This document shows positions 15,044-33,019 of a DNA stretch of 64,000 bases, piece by piece. The notes under the pieces were generated by a model, which saw only the letters and a list, made by a program, of their open reading frames with translations, was not told where the DNA came from and searched no databases. Made by a program: the position numbers and the translations under genes. This DNA comes from an uncultured Bacteroidales bacterium (lineage in GTDB: Bacteria > Bacteroidota > Bacteroidia > Bacteroidales > Muribaculaceae): contig CANSAP010000011.1 in assembly GCA_947644715.1 (NCBI GenBank), forward strand, positions 1-64,000. The letters run 5' to 3'. How positions within the stretch are numbered: the first letter of the stretch is position 1; each line of letters begins with the position of its first letter.

Positions 15044-15082
15044 AATTAGCCCGGAAGCTCAGTACGAACCTCCGGGCTAATT
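15044..15082 (-). terminator. Terminator at the end of the nuo-atp-nuo cluster
   Basis: A perfect 12-bp stem (15044-15055 with 15071-15082) around a 15-base loop, 27 bases after the nuoN stop on the minus strand and followed by an AT-rich tail. It separates the energy cluster from the leucine-rich protein gene. Confidence 0.7.
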
Positions 15083-15109: not shown

Positions 15110-16585
15110 TTAACCGAGCAGGGCAAAAAAGCCTTCAGTTGCTGCAATTTCGCTCACTCCGTAAATCCAGCCGTAGATGCAGCTGATAAGACCGAGGAAG
15201 ATGATGCCTGCGCAGCAAATCCAAAGACCAAAGCGTTCTGTGCATGCGCTGCGGAAGGCCGGAACAACGGGTTCTTCCGGACTTATCCACATGGCCTTAA
15301 CTACAAGCAGATAGTAGTACAGCGATATAATTGTATTAATCAAGGCAATTAATACAAGCACGTAGAGCGCAACGCTTCCACTCTCTGTTGCTCCGGTGAA
15401 AATCAGTATCTTTGAGAAGAATCCTGCAAAGGGAGGAATACCCGCCAGTGAGAATACCGCCAGAGTCATGGCAAATGACAACCAAGGATTAGTCTTATGC
15501 AGACCACGATAGTCATCCATGCTTACATAGCCGGTCTTATTCTCAATTGCCTGAATAACGCCAAATACACCCAGGTTACTGAAGATGTAAACCAAGATAT
15601 AGAAAATCATGGACGTCATTCCAAGAACGTTAGCAGCTACGATACCAAGCATAATATAACCGGCTTGAGACACTGATGAGAATGCCATGAAGCGCTTCAT
15701 GTTGCGCTGACGGATTGCGAAGAGGTTACCGATTGTGATTGTCGCAATAATCAGGGCATACATCATCCACTCCCAAATATCGGAGTAAACCGCGCCAAAG
15801 ACCTGTGCCAAAACCACGAGGAAAGCGAACGCTGCTGAACCCTTGGAGATAACAGAGAGATAGGACGTAACTGTGGTCGGCGCACCCTGATAAACGTCGG
15901 CTGTCCAAAGATGGAAAGGAACAAGCGAAAGCTTGAAACCAAAACCGGCGATTACGAATGCAATGGCTGTAACAAGTAACACACTGTTGCTACCAAGCGC
16001 AATACTCTCGGCAAGGTCAGCAAAATACAGTGAGCCGTTGGACAGGGCATACACAAACGAGAGACCCATCATCAGGATGGCTGAGGAGAAGATGGCGGTG
16101 AACATGTACTTCACTGCTGCTTCGTGGCTTTCATACTTGTTCTTGTTGAAGGCAACCATAGCAGCCAAGGGAAGTGAGGCACTTTCAAGACCGATGATGA
16201 AGAGCAGGAAGTGGCGTGCGGAAATCATGAGATACATGCCGAAGAGCGTTACGAACAGAAGTTCGTAAAATTCGCCACGTCGCACGCTGCCCTCCTCTGA
16301 ATTGATCCAAGGCACAGCTTGAATAAGCACGATGAGTGCACCCAAGTTAAGGATTGACTTAATACAGCTGATTACGGGAGAGGTGACGTACATCCCTCCG
16401 AAAGCCTCGCCGGTGCCGGTGCAGAAGAAACCATAGATGGTGACTGCCGCAAAGCACACGATGGCCAATGGAGTAACCGCGCTGCGGGAATTCTTGCCGC
16501 AGAACGTATCGAACAGGAACACAATCAGGAAGACGGCCAATACGCCAAGCTCCTGTTGCATCGTTAAAAATTGTGCGTAATTCAT
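15110..16585 (-). CDS. nuoN: NADH-quinone oxidoreductase subunit N
   Basis: A 491-residue antiporter-like membrane subunit of complex I, with about 14 predicted helices. The conserved central region includes GFGFKLSLVPFHLWTADVYQGAPT, in which the lysine and the helix-break proline of the proton channel are present, and MKRFMAFSSVSQAGYIMLG. It is the last gene of the cluster, 39 bases after nuoM and just before a terminator. Confidence 0.96.
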   Translation of the reverse strand: MNYAQFLTMQQELGVLAVFLIVFLFDTFCGKNSRSAVTPLAIVCFAAVTIYGFFCTGTGEAFGGMYVTSPVISCIKSILNLGALIVLIQAVPWINSEEGSVRRGEFYELLFVTLFGMYLMISARHFLLFIIGLESASLPLAAMVAFNKNKYESHEAAVKYMFTAIFSSAILMMGLSFVYALSNGSLYFADLAESIALGSNSVLLVTAIAFVIAGFGFKLSLVPFHLWTADVYQGAPTTVTSYLSVISKGSAAFAFLVVLAQVFGAVYSDIWEWMMYALIIATITIGNLFAIRQRNMKRFMAFSSVSQAGYIMLGIVAANVLGMTSMIFYILVYIFSNLGVFGVIQAIENKTGYVSMDDYRGLHKTNPWLSFAMTLAVFSLAGIPPFAGFFSKILIFTGATESGSVALYVLVLIALINTIISLYYYLLVVKAMWISPEEPVVPAFRSACTERFGLWICCAGIIFLGLISCIYGWIYGVSEIAATEGFFALLG

Positions 16586-16624
16586 TGGATAGTGAGTTTA
16601 CTATTGTGTCAATACATTCCGGCT

Positions 16625-18142
16625 TTAGATTGCAGCCTTGAGATTTTCAATTATAGGAAGGAAGCTGTGCTGGATAGTTTCGTTAATCCAGTTGGGGAAA
16701 CAGCCGATAGCAGCGATGCATACAATCAGAGTGATTGTTGAAAGACGCTCCCACCAGGTGGCATCCGTGAGCTGACGGTGATGATCGTCAAACACAGGAC
16801 CAAGCAACAGCTTACCCACAACGCGCAGGATGTAAACCGCAGTGATAACGATTGAGCAAGTTGCTGCAATCACGAAGATACGGTGGAACAGGTCAGCATT
16901 CTGGAAAGAACCGAAGAAGATGGTCATCTCAGCGACAAAGCCTGACAGACCCGGCAGACCGAGAGAAGCAAAACCTGCAATCATATAACAAACACCGAGG
17001 TAAGGCATAATCTGCATCAAGCCACCCATCTTGCGGATGTCGCGTGTGTGAGTACGTCCGTAAATCATACCAATCAAGGCAAAGAAGAGAGCAGTCATCA
17101 GACCATGCGAAAGCATCTGCATGATAGCACCGGTCATCGCGGTGGTGTTAAGCATCAGGATAGCGAAGAGCACCATGCCGCAGTGCGACACTGAAGAGTA
17201 AGCGTTGATATACTTAAGGTCAGTCTGAACGCAAGCGGAGAACGCACCGTAAACGATACTTATGCCGGTCAGGATAATGAAGATCCAAGCCAAGTCATTG
17301 GCCGCCTGAGGAAGAAGATAGATGGCAATGCGGAAACAACCGTAACCACCAAGTTTCATCAGTACGCCGGCATGAAGCATTGATACAGCTGTAGGCGCGC
17401 AAGCATGACCGTCAGGACTCCAAGTATGGAAGGGGAACATGGCACCGAGCACACCGAAGCCCACGAATGTCATCGGGAACAGGAAGTACTGCCAGCCCTT
17501 CTCAATTGCTCCATTATGCGCAATCTCAAGAATATTCCAAGTGTGAGCAGCTCCATCTGCACTCGGACCGGAGTGCCAATAGATGCCAAGCAGTCCAAGC
17601 ATTAGGAATGCGGAACCACCCATAAGCATCAGGGTGAGCTTCATGGCTGAATACTCCTTGCGGCCTGTGCCCCAAACACCGATGAGAAGATACATCGGGA
17701 TAAGTGCAACCTCATAGAACATGAACATCGTGAAGATGTCAATGGTAATAAAGAAGCCGAATACACCCATTGAGAGGAGTGCAAACCAAAGGAAGAAGTT
17801 GCGCGGCAGAGGAGAAATTTTCCAGGAAGCAATCGTGCCTGCGAAAACGATTACCGCACTAAGCATGAGCATCAGCACAGATATGCCGTCTACACCAACT
17901 GAGAGTTTAATGTTCAGAGGTGCATACCACATCCAATTGCCGGTGTACAGCATCTCAGCGGTGTTGCCTGCTGCACGCTGGGCGAGAAAATCCACGCAAA
18001 GCCAGCCGGCAATAGCCAGAAGTGCAACAGAGCACACTACCATCACGGTGCGTATCTGCGTCATCTTCTTGCAGAGAGCGAGTCCTGCAAGCATGATGAG
18101 CGGAATTATCACGAACCAAATTAATATATTCTGAAGTATCAT
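16625..18142 (-). CDS. nuoM: NADH-quinone oxidoreductase subunit M
   Basis: A 505-residue antiporter-like subunit and one of the three proton-translocating channels of complex I. The conserved glutamate helix reads FMFYEVALIPMYLLIGVWG (about residues 140-160) and the lysine channel segment reads FPFHTWSPDGHACAPTAVSMLHAG (about 237-260), with the later lysine in KLGGYGCFR. Length is normal. It lies 39 bases from nuoL and from nuoN. Confidence 0.97.
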   Translation of the reverse strand: MILQNILIWFVIIPLIMLAGLALCKKMTQIRTVMVVCSVALLAIAGWLCVDFLAQRAAGNTAEMLYTGNWMWYAPLNIKLSVGVDGISVLMLMLSAVIVFAGTIASWKISPLPRNFFLWFALLSMGVFGFFITIDIFTMFMFYEVALIPMYLLIGVWGTGRKEYSAMKLTLMLMGGSAFLMLGLLGIYWHSGPSADGAAHTWNILEIAHNGAIEKGWQYFLFPMTFVGFGVLGAMFPFHTWSPDGHACAPTAVSMLHAGVLMKLGGYGCFRIAIYLLPQAANDLAWIFIILTGISIVYGAFSACVQTDLKYINAYSSVSHCGMVLFAILMLNTTAMTGAIMQMLSHGLMTALFFALIGMIYGRTHTRDIRKMGGLMQIMPYLGVCYMIAGFASLGLPGLSGFVAEMTIFFGSFQNADLFHRIFVIAATCSIVITAVYILRVVGKLLLGPVFDDHHRQLTDATWWERLSTITLIVCIAAIGCFPNWINETIQHSFLPIIENLKAAI

Positions 18143-18181
18143 AGTGAGAAATGTCGATATCTTGGTTGTGTCAATTAGCGG

Positions 18182-20119
18182 TTAGAGTATTGCCCAGCAT
18201 GTGATTGCAGCGAGAGCAACGGCACCCATGAGGTACCACCATACGTAAGTCTGAATGCTTCCGCTCTGCATACCGCGAATCGTGTAAGAAGTCTTCTGAG
18301 TAACCTTGGCAAAGGCATCCATAGTGCCATCGATAATGTGACGGTCAAACCATGCAATGCTGGAGCAGATTACATTGAAGATAATCTTATGTGTGATGAA
18401 CATGTAAATCTCATCCCAATAGAAGCGGTGGTGCGCAGCGCGCCAAAGGCCGGGCCAAATTGCGGCAGCCTTGTCAGGCAGAGAGTTCTTCTTGCGGTAC
18501 ATAACAGTCGCGAGCAAAATTGCCACTACGGCCGTGCAGAGAGAAGGTATTGCAACCTTTACCCACTCGATATGGATGTGGTAAGGTTCGCCATTCCATG
18601 TGATAAGCTCTCCAAAGGGAATGAAACCTGCTACACAGCTTACGGCTGCAAGAATTATCAGGGGAAGAGACATCTGCCACGGCGCATCATGCGGACGGTG
18701 GTGCTTGTAGTGAGGATTCTCGTCCCACCAGAAAATCAGGTAGTACAGACGGAACATATAGAAAGCTGTCAGACCGGCAACGAAGGTCATCCATACACCC
18801 CAGAAAGTGCTGTAACCATACATGGCGGAAAGCATTTCATCCTTGGAGAAGAAACCGGAGAAAGGATAGATACCGGCAATCGCCAGACAGCCGATAAGGA
18901 ATGTCCAGTGAGTAATCGGCATGTACTTGCGCAGACCACCCATTGCGGTGTAATCATTCGAGTGTACGGCATGAATCAGTGCACCTGCACCAAGGAAGAG
19001 CAGAGCCTTGAACATTGCGTGAGTGAACAGATGGAACATGGAGGCCATGTAACCCAGCCCCTCATGAATCTCCGGGCGTGCTACACCCAGCGATACCATC
19101 ATAAATGCTATCTGAGAAATAGTAGAGAAGGCAAGCACACGCTTGATGTCAACCTGCGTGCAAGCAACAACTGCTGCATACAGAGCTGTGATTGCACCGA
19201 TAAAGGTAATGAAATCAAGAGCCTGATACTCCATCAGATACAGAGGGAACATTCGAGCCACCAAATACACACCGGCAACAACCATTGTGGCCGCATGAAT
19301 CAGGGCAGACACAGGGGTCGGACCTTCCATTGCATCCGGCAGCCAAATGTGAAGCGGAAGCATGGCTGACTTACCCATACCGCCGGTGAAAATCAGAACC
19401 AAAGCCCAAGTAAGCACGGAACCCCCGAGGAAAGTAGCGCCGCCGGTGCTTGCGAGCACAGCCTGGGGTTGGCCGGGAGCGGTAAGCTCTATGAAGTTGA
19501 AGGTAGGCATATAGAAGGAGAGCACCAAAATGCCTATGAGCATGCCAAGGTCTGCGAAACGAGTTACGATAAATGCTTTCTTAGAAGCGGAAACGGCTGA
19601 GGGAGTCTTGTAGTAGAATCCGATGAGCAAATAGGAGGAAACACCCACAAGCTCCCAGAAGATATACATCTGGAAAATATTGGTTGCCACTACAAGGCCA
19701 AGCATTGAGAAGGAGAACAGCGAAAGGAAAGCGTAGAAACGCTGGAAGCCCTTTTCACCCTCCATATATCCCCATGAGTAGAGATGCACGAAGAAGGAGA
19801 TTGTGGTGATTACCACAAGCATCATAGCGCAAATCGGATCAAGCAGGAATCCAAAGTTCACTACAAGACGCGGGGAGAATTGCAACCAAGTAACATCGAA
19901 GACGGTGTGCTGAAGGCGCTCACTGCCTGAGATAAAGAGGGAGTTGCCACTGAAGAAATAATCGAAAGCCACAGTATAGGCCAACACCATAGTTGTGCCC
20001 ATGCCGAGAATGCCGAGAATACCGGCAAGCTTGTGGCTCATCTTCATTCCGAAAAGTCCCAAGATAAGGAACATCGTAATCGGAATCGCGAGGATTAAAA
20101 TTGGTAATGTCAGATCCAT
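18182..20119 (-). CDS. nuoL: NADH-quinone oxidoreductase subunit L
   Basis: A 645-residue distal antiporter-like subunit with the long lateral helix expected at its C-terminus. Motifs include IFWELVGVSSYLLIGFYYK (conserved Glu) and GGMGKSAMLPLHIWLPDAMEGPTPVSALIHAATMV, with the lysine and the histidine-rich channel segment. It starts 3 bases after the nuoK stop. Confidence 0.97.
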   Translation of the reverse strand: MDLTLPILILAIPITMFLILGLFGMKMSHKLAGILGILGMGTTMVLAYTVAFDYFFSGNSLFISGSERLQHTVFDVTWLQFSPRLVVNFGFLLDPICAMMLVVITTISFFVHLYSWGYMEGEKGFQRFYAFLSLFSFSMLGLVVATNIFQMYIFWELVGVSSYLLIGFYYKTPSAVSASKKAFIVTRFADLGMLIGILVLSFYMPTFNFIELTAPGQPQAVLASTGGATFLGGSVLTWALVLIFTGGMGKSAMLPLHIWLPDAMEGPTPVSALIHAATMVVAGVYLVARMFPLYLMEYQALDFITFIGAITALYAAVVACTQVDIKRVLAFSTISQIAFMMVSLGVARPEIHEGLGYMASMFHLFTHAMFKALLFLGAGALIHAVHSNDYTAMGGLRKYMPITHWTFLIGCLAIAGIYPFSGFFSKDEMLSAMYGYSTFWGVWMTFVAGLTAFYMFRLYYLIFWWDENPHYKHHRPHDAPWQMSLPLIILAAVSCVAGFIPFGELITWNGEPYHIHIEWVKVAIPSLCTAVVAILLATVMYRKKNSLPDKAAAIWPGLWRAAHHRFYWDEIYMFITHKIIFNVICSSIAWFDRHIIDGTMDAFAKVTQKTSYTIRGMQSGSIQTYVWWYLMGAVALAAITCWAIL

Positions 20120-20122
20120 ATC

Positions 20123-20434
20123 TTAGAATTTCATTTTTGTGATTTCGCTTACATCAATCTTCTTAATAGAACGATAGATGTTAATTACGATTGCTATCGC
20201 CAACGCGGTCTCAGCCGCAGCGATACCTATCGCGAACAGAGTGAAGAACATACCCTCAAGCTGTCCGGGGAACAGGAAGCGGTTGAAGATTACGAAATTC
20301 AGGTCAACTGAGTTAAGCATCAGCTCAAGCGAAATGAGGATAGCAATCAGATTCTTGCGGGTGATGAACCCGTAGACACCGCAGGCAAACATAATGAGGC
20401 TCGGTATCAGATACATCAACATTGTAAGATTCAT
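20123..20434 (-). CDS. nuoK: NADH-quinone oxidoreductase subunit K
   Basis: A 103-residue membrane subunit with three helices. Conserved glutamates lie in ILISLELMLNSVDLNF and in GIAAAETALAIAIVINIYR. The ATG at 20434 is chosen because it gives the usual family length and follows nuoJ by 10 bases; an upstream in-frame start would overlap nuoJ by 68 bases and add a non-family segment. Confidence 0.95.
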   Translation of the reverse strand: MNLTMLMYLIPSLIMFACGVYGFITRKNLIAILISLELMLNSVDLNFVIFNRFLFPGQLEGMFFTLFAIGIAAAETALAIAIVINIYRSIKKIDVSEITKMKF

Positions 20435-20444
20435 AACGGCCGGA

Positions 20445-20969
20445 TTACTTGTTGCGGGCAATTGCGATGCCACCGATGATACATGCGAGAAGCAGCACAC
20501 TGATTGCCTCAAAAGGCAAAAGATAACCGAACTTCTCTGAGCTAAGCAGGAAGTGTCCGATCTGCTTCATATTTAAGTCTCCTATGCTTACTGCTTCGGT
20601 AAGACTCATTCCATCGATAAGAGGGAACTTGCAAACCGCTACTCCCAAAAGAGCGACTGCACATACAGCAGCCAAACCACCTACAAACTTACGGTGGTTA
20701 GCCAAAACAGATGCAGGGTCAGCGGGATGCTGAGTCAGCAAAATCGAGAACACAAAGAGCACAAGAATACCACCTGCATAGACAGCTATCTGCACGGCTC
20801 CAAGGAACTCGTAGCCTAACTGGAAGTACACCACGGCAGTGCCGAGAAGCACAAACAGCAGATAAGTGGCAGCACGCAATATCTTGCGGGTAGTCACCGC
20901 CATCGCAGAGAAGACTGCAATGATTACGGCTACTACGAAATACAGAATTATATTTCCTATGGATTCCAT
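20445..20969 (-). CDS. nuoJ: NADH-quinone oxidoreductase subunit J
   Basis: A 174-residue, five-helix membrane subunit. The diagnostic third helix has LGYEFLGAVQIAVYAGGILVLFVFSILLT, with the pi-bulge tyrosine/glycine region conserved. It lies 9 bases after nuoI and 10 bases before nuoK. Confidence 0.95.
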   Translation of the reverse strand: MESIGNIILYFVVAVIIAVFSAMAVTTRKILRAATYLLFVLLGTAVVYFQLGYEFLGAVQIAVYAGGILVLFVFSILLTQHPADPASVLANHRKFVGGLAAVCAVALLGVAVCKFPLIDGMSLTEAVSIGDLNMKQIGHFLLSSEKFGYLLPFEAISVLLLACIIGGIAIARNK

Positions 20970-20978
20970 TATACCGGA

Positions 20979-21539
20979 TTATTTATTATCAGTGTTATTG
21001 GGAGCAGGCTTTGCGCTCTCAGTTTTTGCAGGAGCATCAGCCTTGGCTGCGGGGGCTGCCGGTTTGGGAGCCGGGGCCGGATCTGCTACTTCAGGCATAT
21101 AATTGAGTTGCTTCACGAGACTGTCACGCGTAAACACAGCCTGCTCGAAATCATTGCTGAACTCAAGAGCATCCTGCGGACAAGTGGTGACACACAGCAT
21201 GCAGAATGTGCATGAGCCCAAGTCATACATATACTTGTCCAGTTTACGCTTCTTCTTCCCGTCAGGCAGCTCAACCATCTTAGTGGTAAGTTTTATTGTT
21301 CCATTCGGGCAATTCATCTGACAGATGCCGCAGGCGATACACTTATGCCGACCCTCTGAATCATATTTCAGAGTGAGCTCGGCACGAAAGCGATCGGAAA
21401 TCTGCAACGTGTCGCGGTTCTCGGGATAACATTCGGTAATCTTCGGGGTTACAAGCTCCTTACCGGTCACTTGCATGCCTTTTACAAGACTTGCCACACC
21501 CTTTCCTACCGATGCGAAATATTCCTTAATGCTACTCAT
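20979..21539 (-). CDS. nuoI: NADH-quinone oxidoreductase subunit I (two 4Fe-4S clusters) with an Ala/Pro tail
   Basis: A 186-residue peripheral-arm ferredoxin-like subunit. Cysteines 67, 70, 73 and 77 (CIACGICQMNCP) and 110, 113, 116 and 120 (CTFCMLCVTTCP) bind the two clusters that pass electrons to NuoB. After about residue 148 comes a low-complexity tail rich in Ala, Pro and Lys that is not part of the core fold. This gene is the first nuo gene after the inserted atp block: only 25 bases separate it from the atpG stop. Confidence 0.96.
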   Translation of the reverse strand: MSSIKEYFASVGKGVASLVKGMQVTGKELVTPKITECYPENRDTLQISDRFRAELTLKYDSEGRHKCIACGICQMNCPNGTIKLTTKMVELPDGKKKRKLDKYMYDLGSCTFCMLCVTTCPQDALEFSNDFEQAVFTRDSLVKQLNYMPEVADPAPAPKPAAPAAKADAPAKTESAKPAPNNTDNK

Positions 21540-21564
21540 TATTAGTATTCCTTTCGTAAGGGGA

Positions 21565-22455
21565 TTATTGTTCTACTTGGCCGCCGAGTATATCAAGCAA
21601 CTCGGTGGTGATACTTTGCTGCCTCAACTTATTAAATTCAAGATGAAGCGAATCAAGAAGTTTCTTGGCGTTATCATTTGCACTCTGCATTGCCATAATG
21701 CGAGCGGCCTGTTCCGAAGCCTGATTCTGCACAGTTATCTCCTGCATTGTGGAGAGCACAAACATCGGCAATACTTGATTGAATATACTGTTACCGTCAG
21801 GCTCAAAAAGATAGGGCTTGTTGGCATTTGCTCGATTCTCCTCGCCTGTCAACTCTGCCGCCTGAATCGGGAACAGCTTCTCATCAGCAACGCGCTGACG
21901 GCTCAGTGAAAGGAAACTCATGTACACCACATGAACCTCATCATATTTACCTGTCGCAAAATCATTCTGCAAGCCAAGAGTGAAATCAGTTACAACGTTT
22001 GCAGGCATCTTTGAATTTACATTCGCTTTAAGCTCTACACTCACATTTCCACCGGCAATCTTATGACACGCCTTTGCCATCTTCTTACCGACCGGCACAA
22101 GCGTAATCCTAAAATCCTGGCCATGTTTCTCGCGTAACTGATTCAGGAGAATCAGCACCTCCTTAAATATATTGATATTATAGGCGCCGCACAGACCGTC
22201 ATCGCTGCCGAAGACCACAAGACAAATGGAGCGCACCTCTCCCCTCTCCTCAATAAGCGGCGATGAATAACTGCCGTCAGCATCAAGGAGGTGACCCATA
22301 ATCGACTTTATCTGGTCACGATACGGAAGCAGGCGCTTCAAAGCCTGTTCGTATTTATGCACTTTGGCTGAAGAAATCATCTTCATGGCACCTGTAATCT
22401 TCTCACTTGAAGAAACAGAGCCAATGCGAGTCTTCAGTTCGCGTAATGTCGCCAT
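21565..22455 (-). CDS. atpG: ATP synthase F1 gamma subunit
   Basis: A 296-residue rotor subunit of F1. The N-terminal helix ATLRELKTRIGSVSSSEKITGAMKMISSAK and the C-terminal helix with MQSANDNAKKLLDSL are the coiled-coil shaft, and the C-terminus ITTELLDILGGQ is conserved. It is the last gene of the atp block and lies 25 bases before nuoI. Confidence 0.97.
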   Translation of the reverse strand: MATLRELKTRIGSVSSSEKITGAMKMISSAKVHKYEQALKRLLPYRDQIKSIMGHLLDADGSYSSPLIEERGEVRSICLVVFGSDDGLCGAYNINIFKEVLILLNQLREKHGQDFRITLVPVGKKMAKACHKIAGGNVSVELKANVNSKMPANVVTDFTLGLQNDFATGKYDEVHVVYMSFLSLSRQRVADEKLFPIQAAELTGEENRANANKPYLFEPDGNSIFNQVLPMFVLSTMQEITVQNQASEQAARIMAMQSANDNAKKLLDSLHLEFNKLRQQSITTELLDILGGQVEQ

Positions 22456-22489
22456 ACTTTGCTAATTGTGCTAATTCTTTATGTTTGGG

Positions 22490-22518
22490 GTCAAGCCCCG
22501 CACTTGGCGGAACTTGAC
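22490..22518 (-). other. Hairpin between atpA and atpG
   Basis: GTCAAG (22490-22495) pairs with CTTGAC (22513-22518), and CCGC pairs with GCGG inside it. There is no T run, so it is not a simple terminator. It sits in the 90-base atpA-atpG gap. Confidence 0.4.
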
Positions 22519-22545
22519 GTCCATATTTTCGTCAATGCTATATTA

Positions 22546-24123
22546 TCAAGCCTTATATTTGCTGCTAACTTCTGCTGCACACTTCTTAAGAAGATCCTCC
22601 ACTTCGGGAGTCAGCTTGCCGGCACGAAGCACATCGAGCACTTCAGCCTTATACTTGGCTTTCAGCAACTGCAGGAACAGTTCTTCAAACTCATGAACCT
22701 TTTCCAAAGGTACATCCTCAAGCAAACCATTCACACCGCAATAGATTACTGCGATTTCATCCTCTACAGGCCAGGGCTTGTACTGAGGCTGAGTCAGCAA
22801 CATCTGGTTCTTTCGGCCACGGTCAATCACTTTAGCAGTCACCGGATCGATGTCACCACCAAACTTGGTAAATGATTCCAATTCGCGGAACTGAGCCTGA
22901 GCAATCTTCAGCGTGCCGGCTACCTTCTTCATTGCCTTAATCTGAGCATTACCGCCCACACGGCTTACGGAGATACCCACATTCACAGCGGGACGAATAC
23001 CCTGGTTGAAGAGCGATGACTCCAAATAAATCTGGCCGTCAGTAATAGAGATTACATTCGTAGGAATGTAAGCTGACACGTCGCCGGCCTGAGTCTCGAT
23101 AATCGGCAGAGCTGTCAGTGAACCACCACCTTTAACCATCGGCTTGAGCACCTCGGGCAAATCATTCATGTTTGAGGCAATCTCCTGATTATCAATAATC
23201 TTAGCAGCACGCTCAAGCAGGCGGGAGTGGAGATAGAAAATATCGCCCGGATATGCTTCACGACCGGAAGGACGCTTCAGAATCAGTGATATCTCACGGT
23301 AAGCCACAGCCTGCTTTGAGAGGTCATCATACACGATAAGAGCATCACGACCGGTGTCGCGGAAATACTCGCCAATCGCTACGCCGGCGAAGGGAGCATA
23401 GTAACGCATAGAGGCAGAGTCAGAGGCTGAGGCTCCGATTACTACCGTATAATCCATAGCGCCATACTCTTCAAGAGTATGCACTATTGAAGCAATGGTC
23501 GACGCCTTCTGACCTATAGCTACGTAGATACAGTAGACAGGCTTACCCTCTTCAAAGTTTTTACGCTGATTGATAATGGTATCGATTGCAATAGCGGTCT
23601 TACCAATCTGGCGGTCACCGATGATAAGCTCACGCTGGCCACGACCAATAGGAATCATGGCATCGACAGCCTTCAAACCTGTCTGGAGCGGCTGATTTAC
23701 AGGCTGACGGAAAATAACACCGGGAGCCTTACGCTCAAGAGGAAGAAGGATACGGTCGCCACTGATGGGGCCTTTGCCATCAATAGGTTCGCCTAAAATA
23801 TTGATGACGCGACCAAGCAGACCTTCACCCACCGGAATAGATGCAATGTCACCCGTGCGACGCACCGACATATTTTCGGTAACCTTATTAACATTATTGA
23901 GCAGAACCACACCCACGTTGCTTTCTTCGAGGTTAAGAGCTACGCCCTTAACTCCATTCTCGAATTCAACCAACTCATTAGAGCGTACATTCTCAAGGCC
24001 ATATACATGAGCCACACCGTCACCTACTGAGAGGACAGTGCCAACTTCTTCAAAACTGGCCTTGGAGTTGACATCGGCCAACTGCTGTTTTAGAATATCT
24101 GATATCTCGCTGGGGTTGAGCAT
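22546..24123 (-). CDS. atpA: ATP synthase F1 alpha subunit
   Basis: A 525-residue non-catalytic nucleotide-binding subunit. The P-loop is [18 protein letters not shown] (about residues 168-185); the later segment SISDGQIYLE-like [23 protein letters not shown] and the arginine in [10 protein letters not shown] are conserved. It starts 1 base after the atpH stop, implying translational coupling. Confidence 0.98.
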
Positions 24124-24124
24124 C

Positions 24125-24670
24125 TTATTTTGTGCTAAAGAGTTTTTGTCTTAGATTTTCTATCTCATTGCTGATGGAGGCATCCATTCTCACCTGATCC
24201 ACATCAATTACAAAGCCTCCGATAATTGAGGCATCGATGCGATCAGTGAACTCAAGTTTATTCTCAGGGAATGATTTCTCAATGAGCGCATGGAGCTTTG
24301 CCATTTCAGCATCAGGCAACTTCATGGCGGTCGTAATTCTCACGGTAGAAATATTGTTGGCCTCACGGTAAATATCCCTGTATGCCAAAGCCATTTCATA
24401 AGCATAAGCCTCACGCTTGTTATCGATTATCAGCCGAACGAAGCCTTTATAGTCATTCTCTGCTTCCGGGCCGGCAGCAGTAATGAGGAGTTTGCTCTTA
24501 TCAGCCGCGCTGACAGAGGGATTGGAAAGCGCCTTCAGCAAACCGGGATTTTCTTCAAAAGCCCGCACTACCGAGTGCATCTCATCGTAAACCGCCTGAG
24601 CAGAATTATGCTCAAGGGCAAACTTATAAAGAGCCTTGGCATATCGGTGAGGTATCAGACCGCCATTCAT
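24125..24670 (-). CDS. atpH: ATP synthase F1 delta subunit
   Basis: A 181-residue stator subunit (OSCP type) that ties F1 to the b subunits. The start [15 protein letters not shown] and the C-terminal [35 protein letters not shown] are characteristic. It lies 7 bases after atpF and 1 base before atpA. Confidence 0.96.
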
Positions 24671-24677
24671 GTCAATC

Positions 24678-25172
24678 TCAATTCTTTTCGATTTCGTCTA
24701 ACAATTTGTTTACAAGCTCCACCTGAGCCTTATCAGAAGACATCTGACGACGCATCATCTTCTCCGCAATCTCAATGGAGAACTTGCTCACTTCATTCTT
24801 GAATTGCAACTCGGCCTCCTTGCGTGACTGCTCTATCGAGAGCTTGGCTGCATCCATTACCTTCTGAGCCTCGACGGCAGCTGTGCTGCGAGCCTCATCG
24901 ATAATCTGGGTCTTGATTTTGGCAGCATCACGCAGTATTTCAGCCTGTTGCTTCTGTGCTTCAGCTATGTATTTTTCAGCTTCTTTGCGTGCTCCCTCAA
25001 GTTGCTCTTTGGCATTTTGAGCGTACTCAACACCTTTATCAATCAGGTTGGCACGTTCCTCCATGCTCTTAATAATTACGGGCCAAGCCCACTTTCTCAA
25101 GGCAAGGAAGAGCAGCAGGAATGCCACAAACATCCAAAAAATCAAGCCAAAATCCGGCGTGAATAATTCCAT
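24678..25172 (-). CDS. atpF: ATP synthase Fo b subunit
   Basis: A 164-residue peripheral stalk subunit: an N-terminal membrane helix (about residues 7-27, GLIFWMFVAFLLLFLAL) and a long charged helix to the end. The ATG at 25172 (MELFTPDFG) is chosen; an open frame extends 40 codons further upstream but runs through the hairpin after atpE and has no family similarity. Confidence 0.95.
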   Translation of the reverse strand: MELFTPDFGLIFWMFVAFLLLFLALRKWAWPVIIKSMEERANLIDKGVEYAQNAKEQLEGARKEAEKYIAEAQKQQAEILRDAAKIKTQIIDEARSTAAVEAQKVMDAAKLSIEQSRKEAELQFKNEVSKFSIEIAEKMMRRQMSSDKAQVELVNKLLDEIEKN

Positions 25173-25215
25173 GTGTGTTGTCTTAGAGGTTGGAAGTAAG
25201 TTGCTTTCCGGAGTG

Positions 25216-25250
25216 CGGTCTGTCATCGCCTTTGGAACGATGACAGACCG
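25216..25250 (-). promoter_or_regulatory. Perfect 13-bp hairpin directly downstream of atpE
   Basis: Bases 25216-25228 pair perfectly with 25238-25250 around a 9-base loop. On the transcribed strand it begins 10 bases after the atpE stop and is followed by a mixed sequence without a T run. It is better placed as an RNA-stabilising or processing element than as a terminator. It could favour atpE over the downstream atp genes, matching the multi-copy c ring (inference). Confidence 0.6.
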
Positions 25251-25260
25251 GAATACCGGT

Positions 25261-25527
<267 letters not shown>

Positions 25528-25595
25528 TTATTATATTTCTGAATTAATGAAGAGAGAGTTATTAAATCATTTTCGCTGACACGCTTTTGACAGAA

Positions 25596-26882
25596 TCAAG
25601 CGGTCTTGCCTACTGACTCTGATGTTTTAAGGTCAAGTGCTTTAGGAGCCTCCACATGCTCATGCTCGGCATGTCCATCTTCAGTTGACAAAGCGATGAA
25701 GATTGTCGAGAGCATTGTAAATACATAAGCCTGGATGAAGCTAACCAATACATCAAGCAGCAGCATGAAAATTGTAAAGATAAGCGATACAACAGTCACA
25801 CCTCCTGCGGCAGCCACACCGAACGCTCCGAAGATGAAAATCAGGAGAATCAGTGTGATAACAATCATGTGACCACCCATCATGTTGGCAAACAGACGAA
25901 CGCAGAGAGCTGCCGGCTTCGTAAATATGCCGAATATTTCAATGAACTGCATGATGGGGAGAGGACACTTCAACCAAATAGGCACATCAGGCCAAAAGAT
26001 TTCCTTCCAATAATGCTTGGATCCTTTTACGTTAGTGACAATGAATGTCATGACCGCGAGCACGATAGTAATAGCAATGTTACCGGTAAGATTGGCACCG
26101 CCGGGGAAGATAACTATCAGTCCAAGCAGGTTCATCACAAGGATGAAGAAAAACGCCGTAAGGAGGTAAGGAGCGAACTTGGGAGCCTTCTTGCCAAGAG
26201 TGTTCTTGATAACTCCATCGTAAACAAACTCCACAATCAATTCAAGGAATCCGTTACCTTTGCGAGGAGCCATCATGCCATGCTTTCTGTACCAGCGCAC
26301 GACACACATCATCATTGCAGTGACAACAAGAGCAGAGATAAAGAGCGCCAAAACATTCTTCGTAATAGAAATGTCAAACGGCTTATACTCAGTATATCGA
26401 TTCCCTTCAACGGTAACAAACTCAGGAAGTTTGTCTTTAGCATCAGCAGTTTCTATGCTTGAAGAAGCGTCGTCTACCGGCAACAACTGCACAACCTTAC
26501 TCTTATGCGCTTCAGAAGTTGAGAGGTAAAACAAATACTTATTATCACCCTTGGAAATCTCCACCGGCACTGAAACAAGATGATGTTCCTTCTTTCCGGT
26601 TTCAATATTTTCAGTTTCAACAAGCTCTGTCAGACGAGCAGAAGAAAAACAATGCCAAGAGCCATCATTTGCCCTAACAATGACAGGCAACGGGATTCTA
26701 TACTGATGCGCGAAAGGCACTTCCCAGCCATAGCCATCGCCAAGGTGCTCGAAAATAATCTCCTTGACATCAAGCTTACCCTCGTCCTTATGCTCATCAG
26801 CTGAAGCAACTGCCGGAGCAACGCACCCAAACAAAAGTGCGACGAGCAAAAGCATGCGGGTTATGTGTGTACGTATGGTCAT
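25596..26882 (-). CDS. atpB: ATP synthase Fo a subunit with a long periplasmic N-terminal extension
   Basis: A 428-residue stator subunit, longer than the roughly 270 residues of E. coli. A signal peptide (about residues 1-27) is followed by some 140 periplasmic residues, beginning with IIFEHLGDGYGWEVPF. The conserved membrane domain then starts near residue 170 (ITKNVLALFISALVV). The essential arginine is in ALCVRLFANMMGGHM. Bacteroidota a subunits commonly carry such an extension, here on the long side. The C-terminus adds a His/Glu-rich tail after the last helix. Confidence 0.95.
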   Translation of the reverse strand: MTIRTHITRMLLLVALLFGCVAPAVASADEHKDEGKLDVKEIIFEHLGDGYGWEVPFAHQYRIPLPVIVRANDGSWHCFSSARLTELVETENIETGKKEHHLVSVPVEISKGDNKYLFYLSTSEAHKSKVVQLLPVDDASSSIETADAKDKLPEFVTVEGNRYTEYKPFDISITKNVLALFISALVVTAMMMCVVRWYRKHGMMAPRKGNGFLELIVEFVYDGVIKNTLGKKAPKFAPYLLTAFFFILVMNLLGLIVIFPGGANLTGNIAITIVLAVMTFIVTNVKGSKHYWKEIFWPDVPIWLKCPLPIMQFIEIFGIFTKPAALCVRLFANMMGGHMIVITLILLIFIFGAFGVAAAGGVTVVSLIFTIFMLLLDVLVSFIQAYVFTMLSTIFIALSTEDGHAEHEHVEAPKALDLKTSESVGKTA

Positions 26883-26966
26883 TTTGCGATGATAATTACA
26901 GACGGATGCAGTAATCTATAAAAAATTTTCGACTAAAGAATCTTAGACTTAAGGAACCGTTAAGCA

Positions 26967-27203
26967 TCAGTAGATGCAAACTGAAATCACGTTGTTGTCG
27001 ACATCAGCTATACCGCCTTTAACGTGAACTTCCTCACGCTTTCCACTTTCGTCAGTAAAGATAACATCTCCATCGGAAAGCACGGAAATTATAGATGCGT
27101 GGTTCTTGAGCACTGTAAAACTGCCAAGTTCACCGGGAAGAGTTACCGAAGTAACTTTTCCTTCAAACAGTATCTGCTCTGATGATATAACCTTGAGAGT
27201 CAT
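26967..27203 (-). CDS. atpC: ATP synthase F1 epsilon subunit, short form
   Basis: A 78-residue subunit containing only the N-terminal beta sandwich (LPGELGSFTVLKNHASIISVL). The C-terminal helical domain that inhibits ATP hydrolysis in many bacteria is absent. This short form is typical of Bacteroidota. It implies that the usual epsilon-based inhibition does not operate here. Confidence 0.93.
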   Translation of the reverse strand: MTLKVISSEQILFEGKVTSVTLPGELGSFTVLKNHASIISVLSDGDVIFTDESGKREEVHVKGGIADVDNNVISVCIY

Positions 27204-27302
27204 ATTCTATTAGGTTTTAGATAGTCGATGTCAATTCGAACTCAGTTAATCGAAAGAAATAAATTCTCTGCAGCGTCCCTATGAGTAATGCCAACCGGAG
27301 AA

Positions 27303-28808
<1,506 letters not shown>

Positions 28809-28879
28809 TTAGAAGTATATTGCTTGTGTTAATATTCTAAATAAAGATGTATTAGATTTCTTCCCGGACTGGGGCCTGA

Positions 28880-29956
28880 TTAGAAATGCCAGCCGAGGGT
28901 AGTGCACACCGCCATCAGCACAAGATTTGCAAGCGCGAGGGGCATGAGGTATTTCCACTCAAGTGCGAGCATCTGGTCGATACGCACGCGAGGGAAAGTC
29001 CACTTGAACCAAATGATAACGAAGGAGAAGAAGAAGGCCTTAGCTACAAACCAGACAATACCGGGGATGTAATCCATAACGGCATTGAAGCCATCCCAAC
29101 CATTCACGTGAAAGGGCATCCATCCACCCAGGAACATCAGTGAAGCGATGCCGGATACAATGAAAAGGTTCAGATACTCAGCCAGATAGAAGAAGCCAAA
29201 GTGAATACCGGAATACTCAGTATGATAACCGGCGGTCAACTCATGCTCCGCCTCAGGAAGGTCGAAAGGACCACGGTTAGTTTCGGCAGTTGCTGCAATT
29301 ACATAAATAATACAAGCTATGATAGCGGGGATATGGCCGGTAAAGATAAACCAACCGCCATCCTGAGCCCAAACGATTTCTTCAATGTTCATTGTGCCGG
29401 CAAAAACCACCATAGTGATGATAGCCAAGCCAAGAGAGAGCTCATAACTAACCATTTGTGCACCTGAACGCATTGCGCCAATCAGGGTGTACTTATTATT
29501 GGATGCCCAACCGGCCAACAGGATACCAAGGATACCAACTGAGCTTACAGCGAGGATGAAGAAAATACCGATATTGTAATTGATAATCTGCATTCCGCGT
29601 CCCCAAGGCAAGCACGCAAGCATCGTAACAGAGGATGTAATAATGACATAGGGGGCAAGCTTAAAGAGGAACTTATCGGTGCCCTTCAACGGAATCAGCT
29701 CCTTAATAAGGATTTTGAACATATCCGCAAACACCTGGAGCAGACCCCAATAACCTACTCGCATAGGACCAAGTCGGCACTGGAACCAAGCGCACAGCTT
29801 ACGCTCATAGAGAATATAGAAGAGCGCCAGCACAGTGTAAGCGCCAAGTACGCAGAGGGCGATAATGATACACTCCACGAGCACGGCAGCCCAGCCGGGC
29901 ATACAGCCGATAAGGAGGTTATTTATCCAAGTTGTGACTACGCTAAAGTCAAACAT
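28880..29956 (-). CDS. nuoH: NADH-quinone oxidoreductase subunit H
   Basis: A 358-residue membrane subunit that forms part of the quinone site with NuoB and NuoD. It carries ERKLCAWFQCRLGPMRVGYWGLLQVFADMFKILIKE and the loop AETNRGPFDLPEAEHELTAGYHTEYSG, both diagnostic. It is the last nuo gene before the atp block. Confidence 0.97.
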   Translation of the reverse strand: MFDFSVVTTWINNLLIGCMPGWAAVLVECIIIALCVLGAYTVLALFYILYERKLCAWFQCRLGPMRVGYWGLLQVFADMFKILIKELIPLKGTDKFLFKLAPYVIITSSVTMLACLPWGRGMQIINYNIGIFFILAVSSVGILGILLAGWASNNKYTLIGAMRSGAQMVSYELSLGLAIITMVVFAGTMNIEEIVWAQDGGWFIFTGHIPAIIACIIYVIAATAETNRGPFDLPEAEHELTAGYHTEYSGIHFGFFYLAEYLNLFIVSGIASLMFLGGWMPFHVNGWDGFNAVMDYIPGIVWFVAKAFFFSFVIIWFKWTFPRVRIDQMLALEWKYLMPLALANLVLMAVCTTLGWHF

Positions 29957-30029
29957 AGCTTATAATAAATTTTCTGGTTAGAGGCTTATATTGAGGTGGG
30001 AAGAGCCACGAGTGACCCTTCCACAAATT

Positions 30030-31661
30030 TTAACGGTCGATGTCGGGGATTACGAAGTCAAGAGCTGCACCAATCACGATAAGGTCAGCAATCATATTGC
30101 CTCGACAGGTCAAATCCATTACACCCACAAGGTTGAAGCAGGGGCTTTGGAAGTGCAGACGGTAAGGGGTCTTCTCGCCAGTGCTTTCGATATATACACC
30201 AAAGGCACCGCGGCTTGCCTCGACCTGCTGGTACCAGCGGCCTGCGGGCAACTTCACAATCTTGGGAACCTGAGCGCGGATTTCGCCCTCGGGAATATTG
30301 TCGACGAGTTGTTCGAGAATCTTCACGCTCTCTTCAATCTCGCGCATACGAACCATATAACGAGCGTAAGAGTCACATCCCTCCTCGAGCACTTCCTCAA
30401 ACTGCACGTCAGGATATGCGCTATACGGATGCTTCTTACGGGTGTCGCAACTCCAGTTGGAGCCACGTCCGGAAGGTCCGGTGATGTCATAATTAATGGC
30501 ATCTTCTTTCGAGAGCATTCCGACTCCAACCATACGGTTCTTGGCAATCACATTGCCACTGAACACTTTATGGTATTCCTTCAGTGCCTTAGGCATGACT
30601 TCAATGAGAGCCTTAACATCCTTAACGAAATCGGGATGCAAATCAGCAATTACGCCGCCAATCACATTATAGTTCATGCTCATGCGAGCGCCACAGGTTT
30701 TCTCGAAAATATCGAGTACCATCTCACGCTCACGGAAGCCATAGAAGAAGCAGGTGGTTGCGCCCATATCCATCGAAGTACAACCGAAAGCGAGCAGGTG
30801 GGAGGAGATTCGCATCAGCTCATCCATCATAACTCGGATTACCTGAGCACGCTTGGGCACCTCAAGACCGAGCGCCTTTTCGATGCACATGCAAAGGCAG
30901 TGGCGGTTCATGTGGGCAGACATATAGTCCATGCGATCGGTGAAGTGCAGGGTCTGTGGGTAAGTCATACCCTCCGACAGTTTCTCGATGCCTCGATGGA
31001 TGTAGCCGGAAACAACGTCTACCTTCGTAACAGTCTCACCATCAATGGCAGCACGGAAACGCATTACACCATGAGTTGAAGGATGCTGAGGACCGATATT
31101 AACCACATAATCCTCGGGAGCGAACACCTTAGTTTCGACGCGTTTAATCGAACCGTCAGGCATTTCAACCAAAGTGTGGGAATCATCCTCATTCTCTTCA
31201 TCCTCCATTCGGATAGGATTCAGGTCGGGGTTAGCGTCATAATCCTTACGAAGGGGATAACCTACCCAGTCGTTGCGAAGGAAGAAACGACGCATATCAG
31301 GATGGCCGATGAACTCAATGCCATAGAAGTCATACACCTCACGTTCCTGGAAGTTAGCCACTTTCCACAGGTCGCTCACAGTGTGAATCATAGGTTTCTC
31401 ACGGTCTTCAACCGCAACCTTCACACTAAGCATTTCCCAATTGCGGGCAGTTGAGGTGAAGTAATATATAACTCCGAGAGAGTCTTTCCAATCCATGCCG
31501 ATGAGCGCAGTGAGCACATCGAAATTGAGGTCAGCATTTTCTTTCAGAGCGACCGCCAGCATGCGCCAATCCTTCTCGGGGACGCTTACCAGTAGAGTCT
31601 CACCCTCCTCAAATGTTACCGAAGGGCAGATTTTGCTGATTTTCTCTTGAATATTAGCCAT
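30030..31661 (-). CDS. nuoCD: NADH-quinone oxidoreductase fused subunits C and D
   Basis: A 543-residue fusion. Residues about 1-150 are NuoC (30 kDa type: MIHTVSDLWKVANFQEREVYDFYGIEF and RRFFLRNDWVGYPLRKDY). A short acidic linker is followed by NuoD (49 kDa type: VNIGPQHPSTHGVMRF, HIEKLSEG-like HRGIEKLSEGMTYPQ and DYMSAHMNRH). The fusion is common in Bacteroidota and enterobacteria. It lies 54 bases after nuoB and 73 bases before nuoH. Confidence 0.97.
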   Translation of the reverse strand: MANIQEKISKICPSVTFEEGETLLVSVPEKDWRMLAVALKENADLNFDVLTALIGMDWKDSLGVIYYFTSTARNWEMLSVKVAVEDREKPMIHTVSDLWKVANFQEREVYDFYGIEFIGHPDMRRFFLRNDWVGYPLRKDYDANPDLNPIRMEDEENEDDSHTLVEMPDGSIKRVETKVFAPEDYVVNIGPQHPSTHGVMRFRAAIDGETVTKVDVVSGYIHRGIEKLSEGMTYPQTLHFTDRMDYMSAHMNRHCLCMCIEKALGLEVPKRAQVIRVMMDELMRISSHLLAFGCTSMDMGATTCFFYGFREREMVLDIFEKTCGARMSMNYNVIGGVIADLHPDFVKDVKALIEVMPKALKEYHKVFSGNVIAKNRMVGVGMLSKEDAINYDITGPSGRGSNWSCDTRKKHPYSAYPDVQFEEVLEEGCDSYARYMVRMREIEESVKILEQLVDNIPEGEIRAQVPKIVKLPAGRWYQQVEASRGAFGVYIESTGEKTPYRLHFQSPCFNLVGVMDLTCRGNMIADLIVIGAALDFVIPDIDR

Positions 31662-31715
31662 TATATAATAGGTGTAATGCTGAATATTAGGTGTTAGTTA
31701 GCGAGACGGGAAGAA

Positions 31716-32333
31716 TTAATATTTGCCTACCTCACTTGAGTGCTTGGCGAAGAATTCGTCGATTTTCTCCTTGCGGTTAGCTCCGCCAAAGAATTTCTGA
31801 ACCTTAATCTTACGCTGCAATTGCATCAGGCCATAGAACATTGCTTCCGGACGGGGAGGGCAACCGGGAATATACACGTCCACGGGAAGAATCTTATCAA
31901 CACCGGGGAGCACGCAGTAAGAGTTCTTGAACGGGCCGCCCGAAACCGCGCAACCGCCGCAGGCGATTACGTAGCGGGGTTCAGCGAGCTGCTCGTACAG
32001 GCGACGGAGCACGGGTGCCATGCGATGAACAATTGTACCCTGCACCATTATATAGTCAGCCTGACGGGGGGAGTTACGCGCAACTTCGGCGCCATAACGA
32101 GCCATGTCATAACGCGCAGCGCCGAGACACATGAATTCAATAGCACAGCATGATGTGCCGAAGCAGAGCGGCCAAAGAGAATTGGCGCGTCCCCAGTTAA
32201 TCAACTGGTCGAGCTTGCCTACCACGACATTTGCACCGGTAGCGTTCAGCTCTTCGACCAAAGAATCTATGTAAGCGTTATCCTTGAAGTCTTCATGCTT
32301 CATTGAGCGGATAGCGGGTGATTTTACTGCCAT
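31716..32333 (-). CDS. nuoB: NADH-quinone oxidoreductase subunit B
   Basis: A 205-residue subunit carrying the terminal N2 iron-sulfur cluster. The ligands are the tandem Cys62-Cys63 (GTSCCAIEF), Cys128 (GGCAVSGG) and Cys158 (PGCPPRPE). The ATG at 32333 is preferred over an in-frame start 7 codons upstream, because it gives a normal N-terminus and a 10-base overlap with the nuoA end. Confidence 0.96.
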   Translation of the reverse strand: MAVKSPAIRSMKHEDFKDNAYIDSLVEELNATGANVVVGKLDQLINWGRANSLWPLCFGTSCCAIEFMCLGAARYDMARYGAEVARNSPRQADYIMVQGTIVHRMAPVLRRLYEQLAEPRYVIACGGCAVSGGPFKNSYCVLPGVDKILPVDVYIPGCPPRPEAMFYGLMQLQRKIKVQKFFGGANRKEKIDEFFAKHSSEVGKY

Positions 32334-32695
32334 TTCAAAGCTCCTTTCCGCCAAGCATACGCGAGGCCCAAGATTAATATAAACATAAATACCGCAATCG
32401 CGAGCAATCCATCAGGGCCCAAAGAGCGGCAAATCACAGCCCAAGGATAAAGGAAGACAGTCTCCACGTCAAACACCAGGAAGAGAATTGCGAAGAGATA
32501 GTAGCCAACCTTAAACTGAAGCATGGACTCACCACGCGTAGGGATACCACACTCGTAGGGCTCTGATTTTTTAACTGAGAAGCTTCGCGGAGAGATAAAC
32601 CGGGCAATTAAGAGAGCGGCAAAGACGAGGCCAATGCCGGTGAGCACCGCCGTAATCGCCAAGTCGCCGTTACTTATGCCTAAAAGAAGGTTCAT
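32324..32695 (-). CDS. nuoA: NADH-quinone oxidoreductase subunit A
   Basis: A 123-residue, three-helix membrane subunit. It shows YECGIPTRGESMLQFKVGYYLFAILFLVFDVETVFLYPWA, with the conserved Cys loop and Asp/Glu pair. It is the first gene of the energy cluster. A TAACTTTG box lies 76 bases upstream. Confidence 0.96.
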   Translation of the reverse strand: MNLLLGISNGDLAITAVLTGIGLVFAALLIARFISPRSFSVKKSEPYECGIPTRGESMLQFKVGYYLFAILFLVFDVETVFLYPWAVICRSLGPDGLLAIAVFMFILILGLAYAWRKGALKWQ

Positions 32696-32770: not shown

Positions 32771-32778
32771 CAAAGTTA
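32771..32778 (-). promoter_or_regulatory. -7 box of the nuo-atp-nuo cluster
   Basis: TAACTTTG on the minus strand. The predicted leader before nuoA is about 70 bases. A -33 TTG at the ideal spacing is not visible. Confidence 0.55.
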
Positions 32779-32960: not shown

Positions 32961-33019
32961 CGCTAATAAACACCTCGGCCGGCTCGGAGTACTCCGGCCG
33001 GCCGAGGTGTTTATTAGCG
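32961..33019. terminator. Bidirectional terminator with a 23-bp perfect stem
   Basis: Bases 32961-32983 pair perfectly with 32997-33019. The inner part (32985-32996) is itself a perfect palindrome, so the stem continues past one bulged T. A GC-rich centre is flanked by AATAAA on one side and TTTATT on the other, which gives a U-tract in either direction. It ends the receptor-lipoprotein operon and insulates it from the nuo promoter. Confidence 0.75.

Follow-up and report, generated by a model that had tools for sequence, protein, structure and literature searches.

Two energy gene clusters of Bacteroidetes come closest to the locus described here. In Bacteroides fragilis, the excerpts of PMC7002350 describe a complex I without NuoE, NuoF and NuoG (EFG-less), encoded by ten consecutive nuo locus tags (BF638R_0841-0850), whose electron donor is given as unknown; the operon is poorly expressed in rich medium and a deletion mutant has been made. 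For ATP synthase, the sections of PMC5709465 at hand report from Bacteroides and Prevotella a minor, complete Bacteroidetes atp unit in the order beta-epsilon-a-c-b-delta-alpha-gamma; that unit consists of atp genes, and nuo and NADH go unmentioned in the available main text. We analysed a stretch of 64,000 nucleotides (hereafter the window) from a draft genome of an uncultured Muribaculaceae bacterium of the order Bacteroidales (GCA_947644715.1, contig CANSAP010000011.1), wherein these two clusters are nested. At positions 15110-32695 of the minus strand, open reading frames (ORFs) and NCBIfam profiles gave a row of 18 genes, nuoA-B-CD-H, then atpD-C-B-E-F-H-A-G, then nuoI-J-K-L-M-N. All 18 frames are intact and on the same strand, with junctions of 77 nt (nuoH-atpD) and 25 nt (atpG-nuoI), just as the initial annotation had described them.

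Like the B. fragilis operon, this row has nuo genes without nuoEFG and an eleven-subunit organisation (excerpts of PMC7002350). Unlike it, the row holds a complete set of atp genes, for which the consecutive nuo tags of B. fragilis leave no room (same excerpts), and the embedded block shares its internal order, atpD-C-B-E-F-H-A-G, with the Bacteroidetes atp unit (PMC5709465, in the sections at hand). We consider it likely that the whole atpDCBEFHAG block was placed between nuoH and nuoI long ago and has been kept there since, and that the 18 genes form one transcription unit. A rearrangement in one Bacteroidales branch would have put the entire atp operon inside that of the EFG-less complex I, with the nested order retained by the descendants sampled. 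The unit would start before nuoA and end at the hairpin after nuoN, and a single message of ~17.6 kb would yield both the proton pump and an ATP synthase predicted to run on protons. Since transcripts of Bacteroides thetaiotaomicron reach ~18 kb (PMC7366714, in the part consulted), a message of that length is possible.

Spread of the nested order through Bacteroidales

The nested arrangement is the usual one in this Bacteroidales branch. At all 47 loci of the same genus, the window included, atpD directly followed nuoH. The same was found in 35 of 36 genomes covering the 28 other Muribaculaceae genera sampled, the 36th being cut by a contig end, and in 12/12 genomes of six further families (f104, f59, f21, f85, f66 and f27); NuoH of f104 was 97% identical to that of Barnesiella sp. 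An22. A reading of the arrangement as peculiar to the source genome was thus not sustained, since the fused state extends to each of the 29 Muribaculaceae genera sampled and to six further families. In 27 other families, nuoI directly followed nuoH in 51/51 genomes (at least 18 of them from family f101), and in the other members of the order that we read, the nuo genes lay away from the atp genes. Together with the consecutive nuo tags of B. fragilis, this agreed with the initial annotation, which held that the two operons are separate in Bacteroides genomes and proposed mapping both boundaries across the order. The mapping gave a clean nesting of one energy operon in another, found in seven sampled families. 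These arrangement counts stand apart from ~20 further families of the order with NuoH matches and from named Bacteroidaceae except B. fragilis; distant NuoH paralogues (L031-L033) were excluded, and L083 was entered as a contig end. Among named loci (the best 80 of at least 573), 67 were fused, 10 were separate (nuoH-nuoI) and 3 were contig ends. Butyricimonas is among the separate ones, as are records that carry the labels Odoribacteraceae and Rikenellaceae, the labels of metagenome-assembled genomes among the named loci being unreliable.

Where a locus was long enough to judge, the full 18-gene order was found in 42 of 43 cases, and the arrangement is therefore not due to chance. In the sole exception, G047, a run of N interrupts nuoI: nuoJ-N are missing after nuoI, and nuoL is found at another place on that long contig. 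In G074, of the same genus, nuoH and nuoL are 10 kb apart on one strand, and the break in G047 was treated as a scaffolding fault. The neighbours of the row in the window (33037-33918, 33937-36159, 13732-15027 and 10917-12227) were seen in 0, 9, 0 and 1 of the 43 loci, respectively, the flanks being short. Three Muribaculaceae members (G078, G203 and G204) gave neither a NuoH nor an AtpD match; NuoL was found in G078 (as two fragments) and in G204 and not in G203, and these absences are likely contig gaps. One genome, G228, had a NuoH match and no match for AtpD or NuoL.

Phylogeny pointed to one event. When 22 of the 39 taxa were selected for tree building, the fused genomes formed one clade with concatenated nuo proteins (support 100/99) and with concatenated atp proteins (94/93), and quick trees of all 39 taxa gave the fused clade 100 (nuo) and 96 (atp). 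The order of families inside the clade was broadly alike in both. The trees thus fit a single old change in one Bacteroidales branch; its presence in all 29 sampled Muribaculaceae genera and six other families likewise makes it old.

A private insertion by a mobile element was rejected. The layout is common to many relatives, and the genes flanking both junctions are the nuo and atp genes themselves. None of the nine repeat families or pairs reported in 20900-29300 lies at both junctions, and no transposase or integrase was matched in Pfam among 30 window proteins scanned (a subset of the ORFs; 4/30 had no match at all). This agreed with the absence of transposase and repeat at the junctions stated from the outset.

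The nested arrangement should be visible in public genome annotations and hence is not regarded as a new system; among the papers listed by full-text searches of one collection, we recognised none as describing atp genes inside a nuo operon. The fused state has been kept across the seven sampled families, including the isolates Barnesiella sp. An22 and Muribaculaceae Isolate-110, and offers a natural, one-message-like version of the two operons with which it can be tested whether holding proton pumping and ATP synthesis at a fixed ratio is of use to the cell. It may also matter to genetics, since a polar disruption of nuoA-H in fused bacteria may remove the ATP synthase too.

Promoter and terminator signals along the row

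We scanned the 160 nt upstream of each gene for TAnnTTTG, the consensus of the Bacteroides housekeeping -7 element (PMC7366714, in the part consulted), in fused loci with distinct sequences and against single-letter shuffles. The motif preceded nuoA in 70/104 fused loci (shuffled 9.2%), embedded atpD in 5/107 (shuffled 8.3%) and nuoI in 4/89 (shuffled 3.2%), with no clear excess before the other 15 genes of the fused row. In unfused operons it was found before nuoA in 17/37 cases and before atpD in 24/38.

Hairpins of -12 kcal/mol or better were then counted in the 80 nt after each stop codon, again in fused loci with distinct sequences and against single-letter shuffles. They followed nuoN in 38/40 loci (shuffled 7; median -24.5) and nuoH in 3/110 (shuffled 3); in the window itself, structures after nuoH (-5.5) and atpG (-8.4) were weak. 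The initial claim that the only clear terminator stands after nuoN had to be given up, as other hairpins of the window follow atpE, atpA and nuoCD (the last at -14.7) and a 22-bp stem precedes nuoA. A scan for sigma-70 promoters and for terminators with a T-run was uninformative (terminators, 18 vs 17.6 expected; promoters, 42 vs 25.2 expected, and scattered). From the motif and hairpin statistics, which mostly agree, we infer that a shared transcription of the row fits.

Several observations weigh against an old, single placement read as one message. The clade of fused genomes was weakly held (60/38) in the single-gene AtpD tree. Inside the operon, the window has strong hairpins after atpE (25216-25251, -25.3) and after atpA (22490-22518, -21.8). 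Across fused loci the former is not family-wide (13/94, shuffled 15) and the latter shows a mild excess (25/89, shuffled 13). Excesses also appear after atpG (20/90, shuffled 6), nuoK (39/83, shuffled 13) and nuoI (25/88, shuffled 9), with medians near -7 to -12. In the six fused families outside Muribaculaceae, TAnnTTTG preceded nuoA in only 5/12 loci and atpD in 3/12 (two from f85, one from f104). Moreover, absence of a motif is not proof of absence of a promoter, and the state of unfused atpD depends on lineage: it carries TAnnTTTG in 21/22 cases outside the nuo-bearing members of f101 and in only 3/16 inside them. Because these members have the nearest unfused atp relatives, and their atp operons mostly lack the motif, the -7 element before atpD may have been lost before the embedding took place. 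In this group a short same-strand frame often stands upstream of atpD; at loci L290, L295 and L298, atpD follows a protein of ~130 aa whose N-terminal part has a hydrophobic stretch and whose C-terminal ends are alike.

Retention, origin and control of the nested block

Why the order was kept is a question apart from how it arose. One explanation, compatible with an old placement read as one message and differing only on retention, is that the insertion brought no benefit and that any rearrangement became harmful once the downstream genes depended on the upstream promoter; the order of the genes would then carry no information on a useful ratio of pump to synthase. We give this an even chance. 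The lack of a -7 element at the junctions provides for such a lock-in without benefit: an atp block without its own element could not leave without losing expression. Bacteroidales with separate nuo operons are numerous. In addition, complex I is probably not the sole ion pump, since NqrA, whose gene also occurs elsewhere in the source genome, scored above cut-off in 18/20 fused Muribaculaceae genomes and in 10/11 other fused genomes tested. Nothing speaks directly against it, and retention across seven families amid changing flanks fits selection and lock-in alike; lock-in and a fixed-ratio benefit thus explain retention equally well. The stronger proposal, that the shared message sets the ratio of pump to synthase and couples their assembly in the membrane, with a synthase lineage whose history differs from that of the pump, strikes us as rather unlikely. 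Loss of the other ion pump as the cause of the fusion was rejected, NQR being retained in most fused genomes tested.

A second question is whether the embedded synthase is the original one. Its nearest relatives are the atp genes of f101, for instance in the genomes G534, G364, G532 and G555, with AtpD at 77-81% identity and, in these four, a gap of 32-72 nt between atpC and atpB. In those four genomes, nuo and atp form separate complete operons 11-33 kb apart, in varied orientation; in other f101 genomes the distance from nuoH to atpD is ~70 kb (G529) or >1 Mb (G526 and G527). We read 19 unfused atp stretches, one of them from G364 of f101, and in nine of these atpC is followed by atpB. Of the eight such operons outside f101, seven have 429-470 nt between the two genes and the eighth (G032, f9) has 132 nt; six of the seven gaps were translated, each giving a membrane-type protein of 119-160 aa, which we read as AtpI-like. 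In the remaining unfused stretches, atpD stands mostly with atpC and without atpB beside it. Unlike those seven operons, neither the fused ones nor those read from the four f101 genomes have a gap gene between atpC and atpB.

It is therefore possible, and we hold it only tentatively, that the embedded atp block is not the resident one, a diverged lineage having passed, in either direction, between nuo-bearing f101 and the branch with the fused order, and replaced an older type. The atp tree grouped the fused genomes with f101 (one genome, G364) at 100/100, and the nuo tree rejected that group (p-AU, the approximately unbiased test, 0.0042), so that the two trees disagree on the nearest unfused family. 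AtpD identity to the window was 77-81% in nuo-bearing f101 (15/15 tested) versus 68-70% in nuo-lacking f101 (5/5), and the gap gene is missing from the fused and those four f101 operons alike. Outside its own genome, AtpD reached at most 74% identity among the matches listed for 197 genomes drawn from the class. On the other side, a single event may account for the pattern within f101, nuo could have moved instead of atp, and fast evolution on a long branch could mislead. Taken together, the original synthase may have been a different one, and there may have been an exchange between branches, of atp or else of nuo. Horizontal transfer of atp from another order was rejected, with no AtpD above 74% among those same matches. 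As a separate observation, f101 (loci L290-L309) has two ATP synthase lineages in clades far apart, a window-like one in the tested genera with nuo and another type in the tested genera without nuo.

As for control, the row might instead consist of two or three separately controlled, adjoining units, with internal promoters of another type driving atpD and nuoI. The need for the subunits is unequal, as an F1Fo complex contains several copies of alpha, beta and c; the window hairpins after atpE and atpA could process the message, and the few loci with TAnnTTTG before atpD (5/107) or a hairpin after atpG (20/90) would suit such units. Against them, the motif occurs at both junctions about as often as in shuffled sequence, and hairpins after nuoH show no excess; we regard separate units as improbable. 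With a single unit, which we prefer, unequal subunit needs would be set by translation and by message processing, for instance at the atpE and atpA hairpins. Last, an assembly artefact is next to impossible even though the source genome is a draft of 73 contigs, since many species, each assembled separately, share these junctions, and the genomes G122, G179 and G495, each a single contig, are among them.

Gene calls and the nature of the two machines

Gene calls and other features of the window are given in Table 1. For nuoB, nuoK and atpF, the listed TTG starts are probably overlong, and the downstream ATG codons at 32333, 20434 and 25172 were preferred.

Table 1. Features of the nested nuo and atp row, from the promoter side to its end (window coordinates)
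Feature	Coordinates	Strand	Remarks
22-bp-stem hairpin/inverted repeat	32962..33018	.	Between upstream gene and nuoA promoter region; candidate end of upstream unit
Candidate -7 element of a sigma-ABfr promoter, TAACTTTG	32771..32778	-	76 nt before nuoA; motif enriched there across fused relatives
nuoA	32324..32695	-	NCBIfam NF005839, E 7.7e-31
nuoB	31716..32354	-	NF011391, E 4.4e-106; likely ATG 32333
nuoCD fusion	30030..31661	-	NF004739, E 7.7e-128, and TIGR01961
nuoH	28880..29956	-	NF004741, E 7e-98
Junction 1, nuoH-atpD	28803..28879	-	77 nt; without -7 promoter element, without strong hairpin
atpD (F1 beta)	27303..28802	-	TIGR01039, E 2.4e-233
atpC (F1 epsilon, 78 aa)	26967..27203	-	TIGR01216, positions 2-76 of 130
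atpB (Fo a)	25596..26882	-	NF009953, E 7.5e-61
atpE (Fo c)	25261..25503	-	TIGR01260; aligned to 1yce
atpF (Fo b)	24678..25292	-	NF011041; likely ATG 25172
atpH (F1 delta)	24125..24670	-	NF009964, E 7e-45
atpA (F1 alpha)	22546..24123	-	TIGR00962, E 1.6e-227
atpG (F1 gamma)	21565..22455	-	TIGR01146, E 6.8e-69
Junction 2, atpG-nuoI	21540..21564	-	25 nt; without -7 promoter element, without strong hairpin
nuoI with Ala/Pro/Lys-rich tail	20979..21539	-	TIGR01971, E 3e-28
nuoJ	20445..20969	-	NF005168
nuoK	20123..20512	-	NF004322; likely ATG 20434
nuoL	18182..20119	-	NF005141, E 2.6e-183
nuoM	16625..18142	-	TIGR01972, E 9.6e-121
nuoN	15110..16585	-	TIGR01770, E 7.9e-103
Hairpin after nuoN	15044..15082	-	-28.7 kcal/mol; candidate operon end

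All complex I subunits of the eleven-subunit form (A, B, C, D, H, I, J, K, L, M and N) were matched by NCBIfam profiles, C and D being fused. The row holds no nuoE, nuoF or nuoG; genome-wide, the search of the source genome was for NuoF (TIGR01959) rather than for NuoE or NuoG, and its best result was a 42-bit partial match against a cut-off of 558.65. No match above 51 bits was found in any of 17 fused genomes tested with that profile. With no NuoE, NuoF or NuoG in the operon and no NuoF in the genome, the pump is therefore not an ordinary NADH dehydrogenase, and by its gene set, A-B-CD-H-I-J-K-L-M-N, we assign the nuo row to the EFG-less complex I of Bacteroidales. Eight atp genes stand between nuoH and nuoI, whose direct succession is not needed for function.

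All F1Fo subunits (a, b, c, alpha, beta, gamma, delta and epsilon) were likewise matched by NCBIfam profiles. The c subunit was aligned to that of 1yce, a structure entry named sodium ion specific. In the alignment, the Gln of 1yce lies opposite Ile, the Ser after the carboxylate opposite Gly, and the Tyr opposite Phe. We take Gln, Ser and Tyr to be Na+ site residues of the 1yce ring; the window c subunit differs there, and the ATP synthase is therefore predicted to be H+-driven. In the source genome there is a single match each for F1 alpha, F1 beta and NuoH. A third PF00006 match, on another contig, is a 656-aa frame that by our reading is Rho-like. A second, backup copy of atp or nuo was rejected, given the single alpha/beta pair and the single NuoH.

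The F1 epsilon subunit is short. It has 78 aa in the window, covering the N-terminal part of its profile only, and in 106 fused loci it spans 77-82 residues when counted from the aligned start; its C-terminal part, presumably the inhibitory one, seems to be absent.

In Muribaculaceae, NuoI ends in a low-complexity tail rich in Ala, Pro, Lys and Glu, which brings the protein to a total of up to 350 aa (locus L099) and contains repeated segments in loci L060 and L093. NuoI measures 148-161 aa in six fused loci of other families, and its median is 160 aa (range 105-211) in 58 unfused loci. The tail may sit where the missing NADH module would dock, which could bear on the electron donor of the EFG-less complex I. 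Finally, in both f104 genomes (G456 and G367; loci L111 and L112), NqrA lies ~10 kb from nuoH on the opposite strand, forming a neighbourhood of energy genes.

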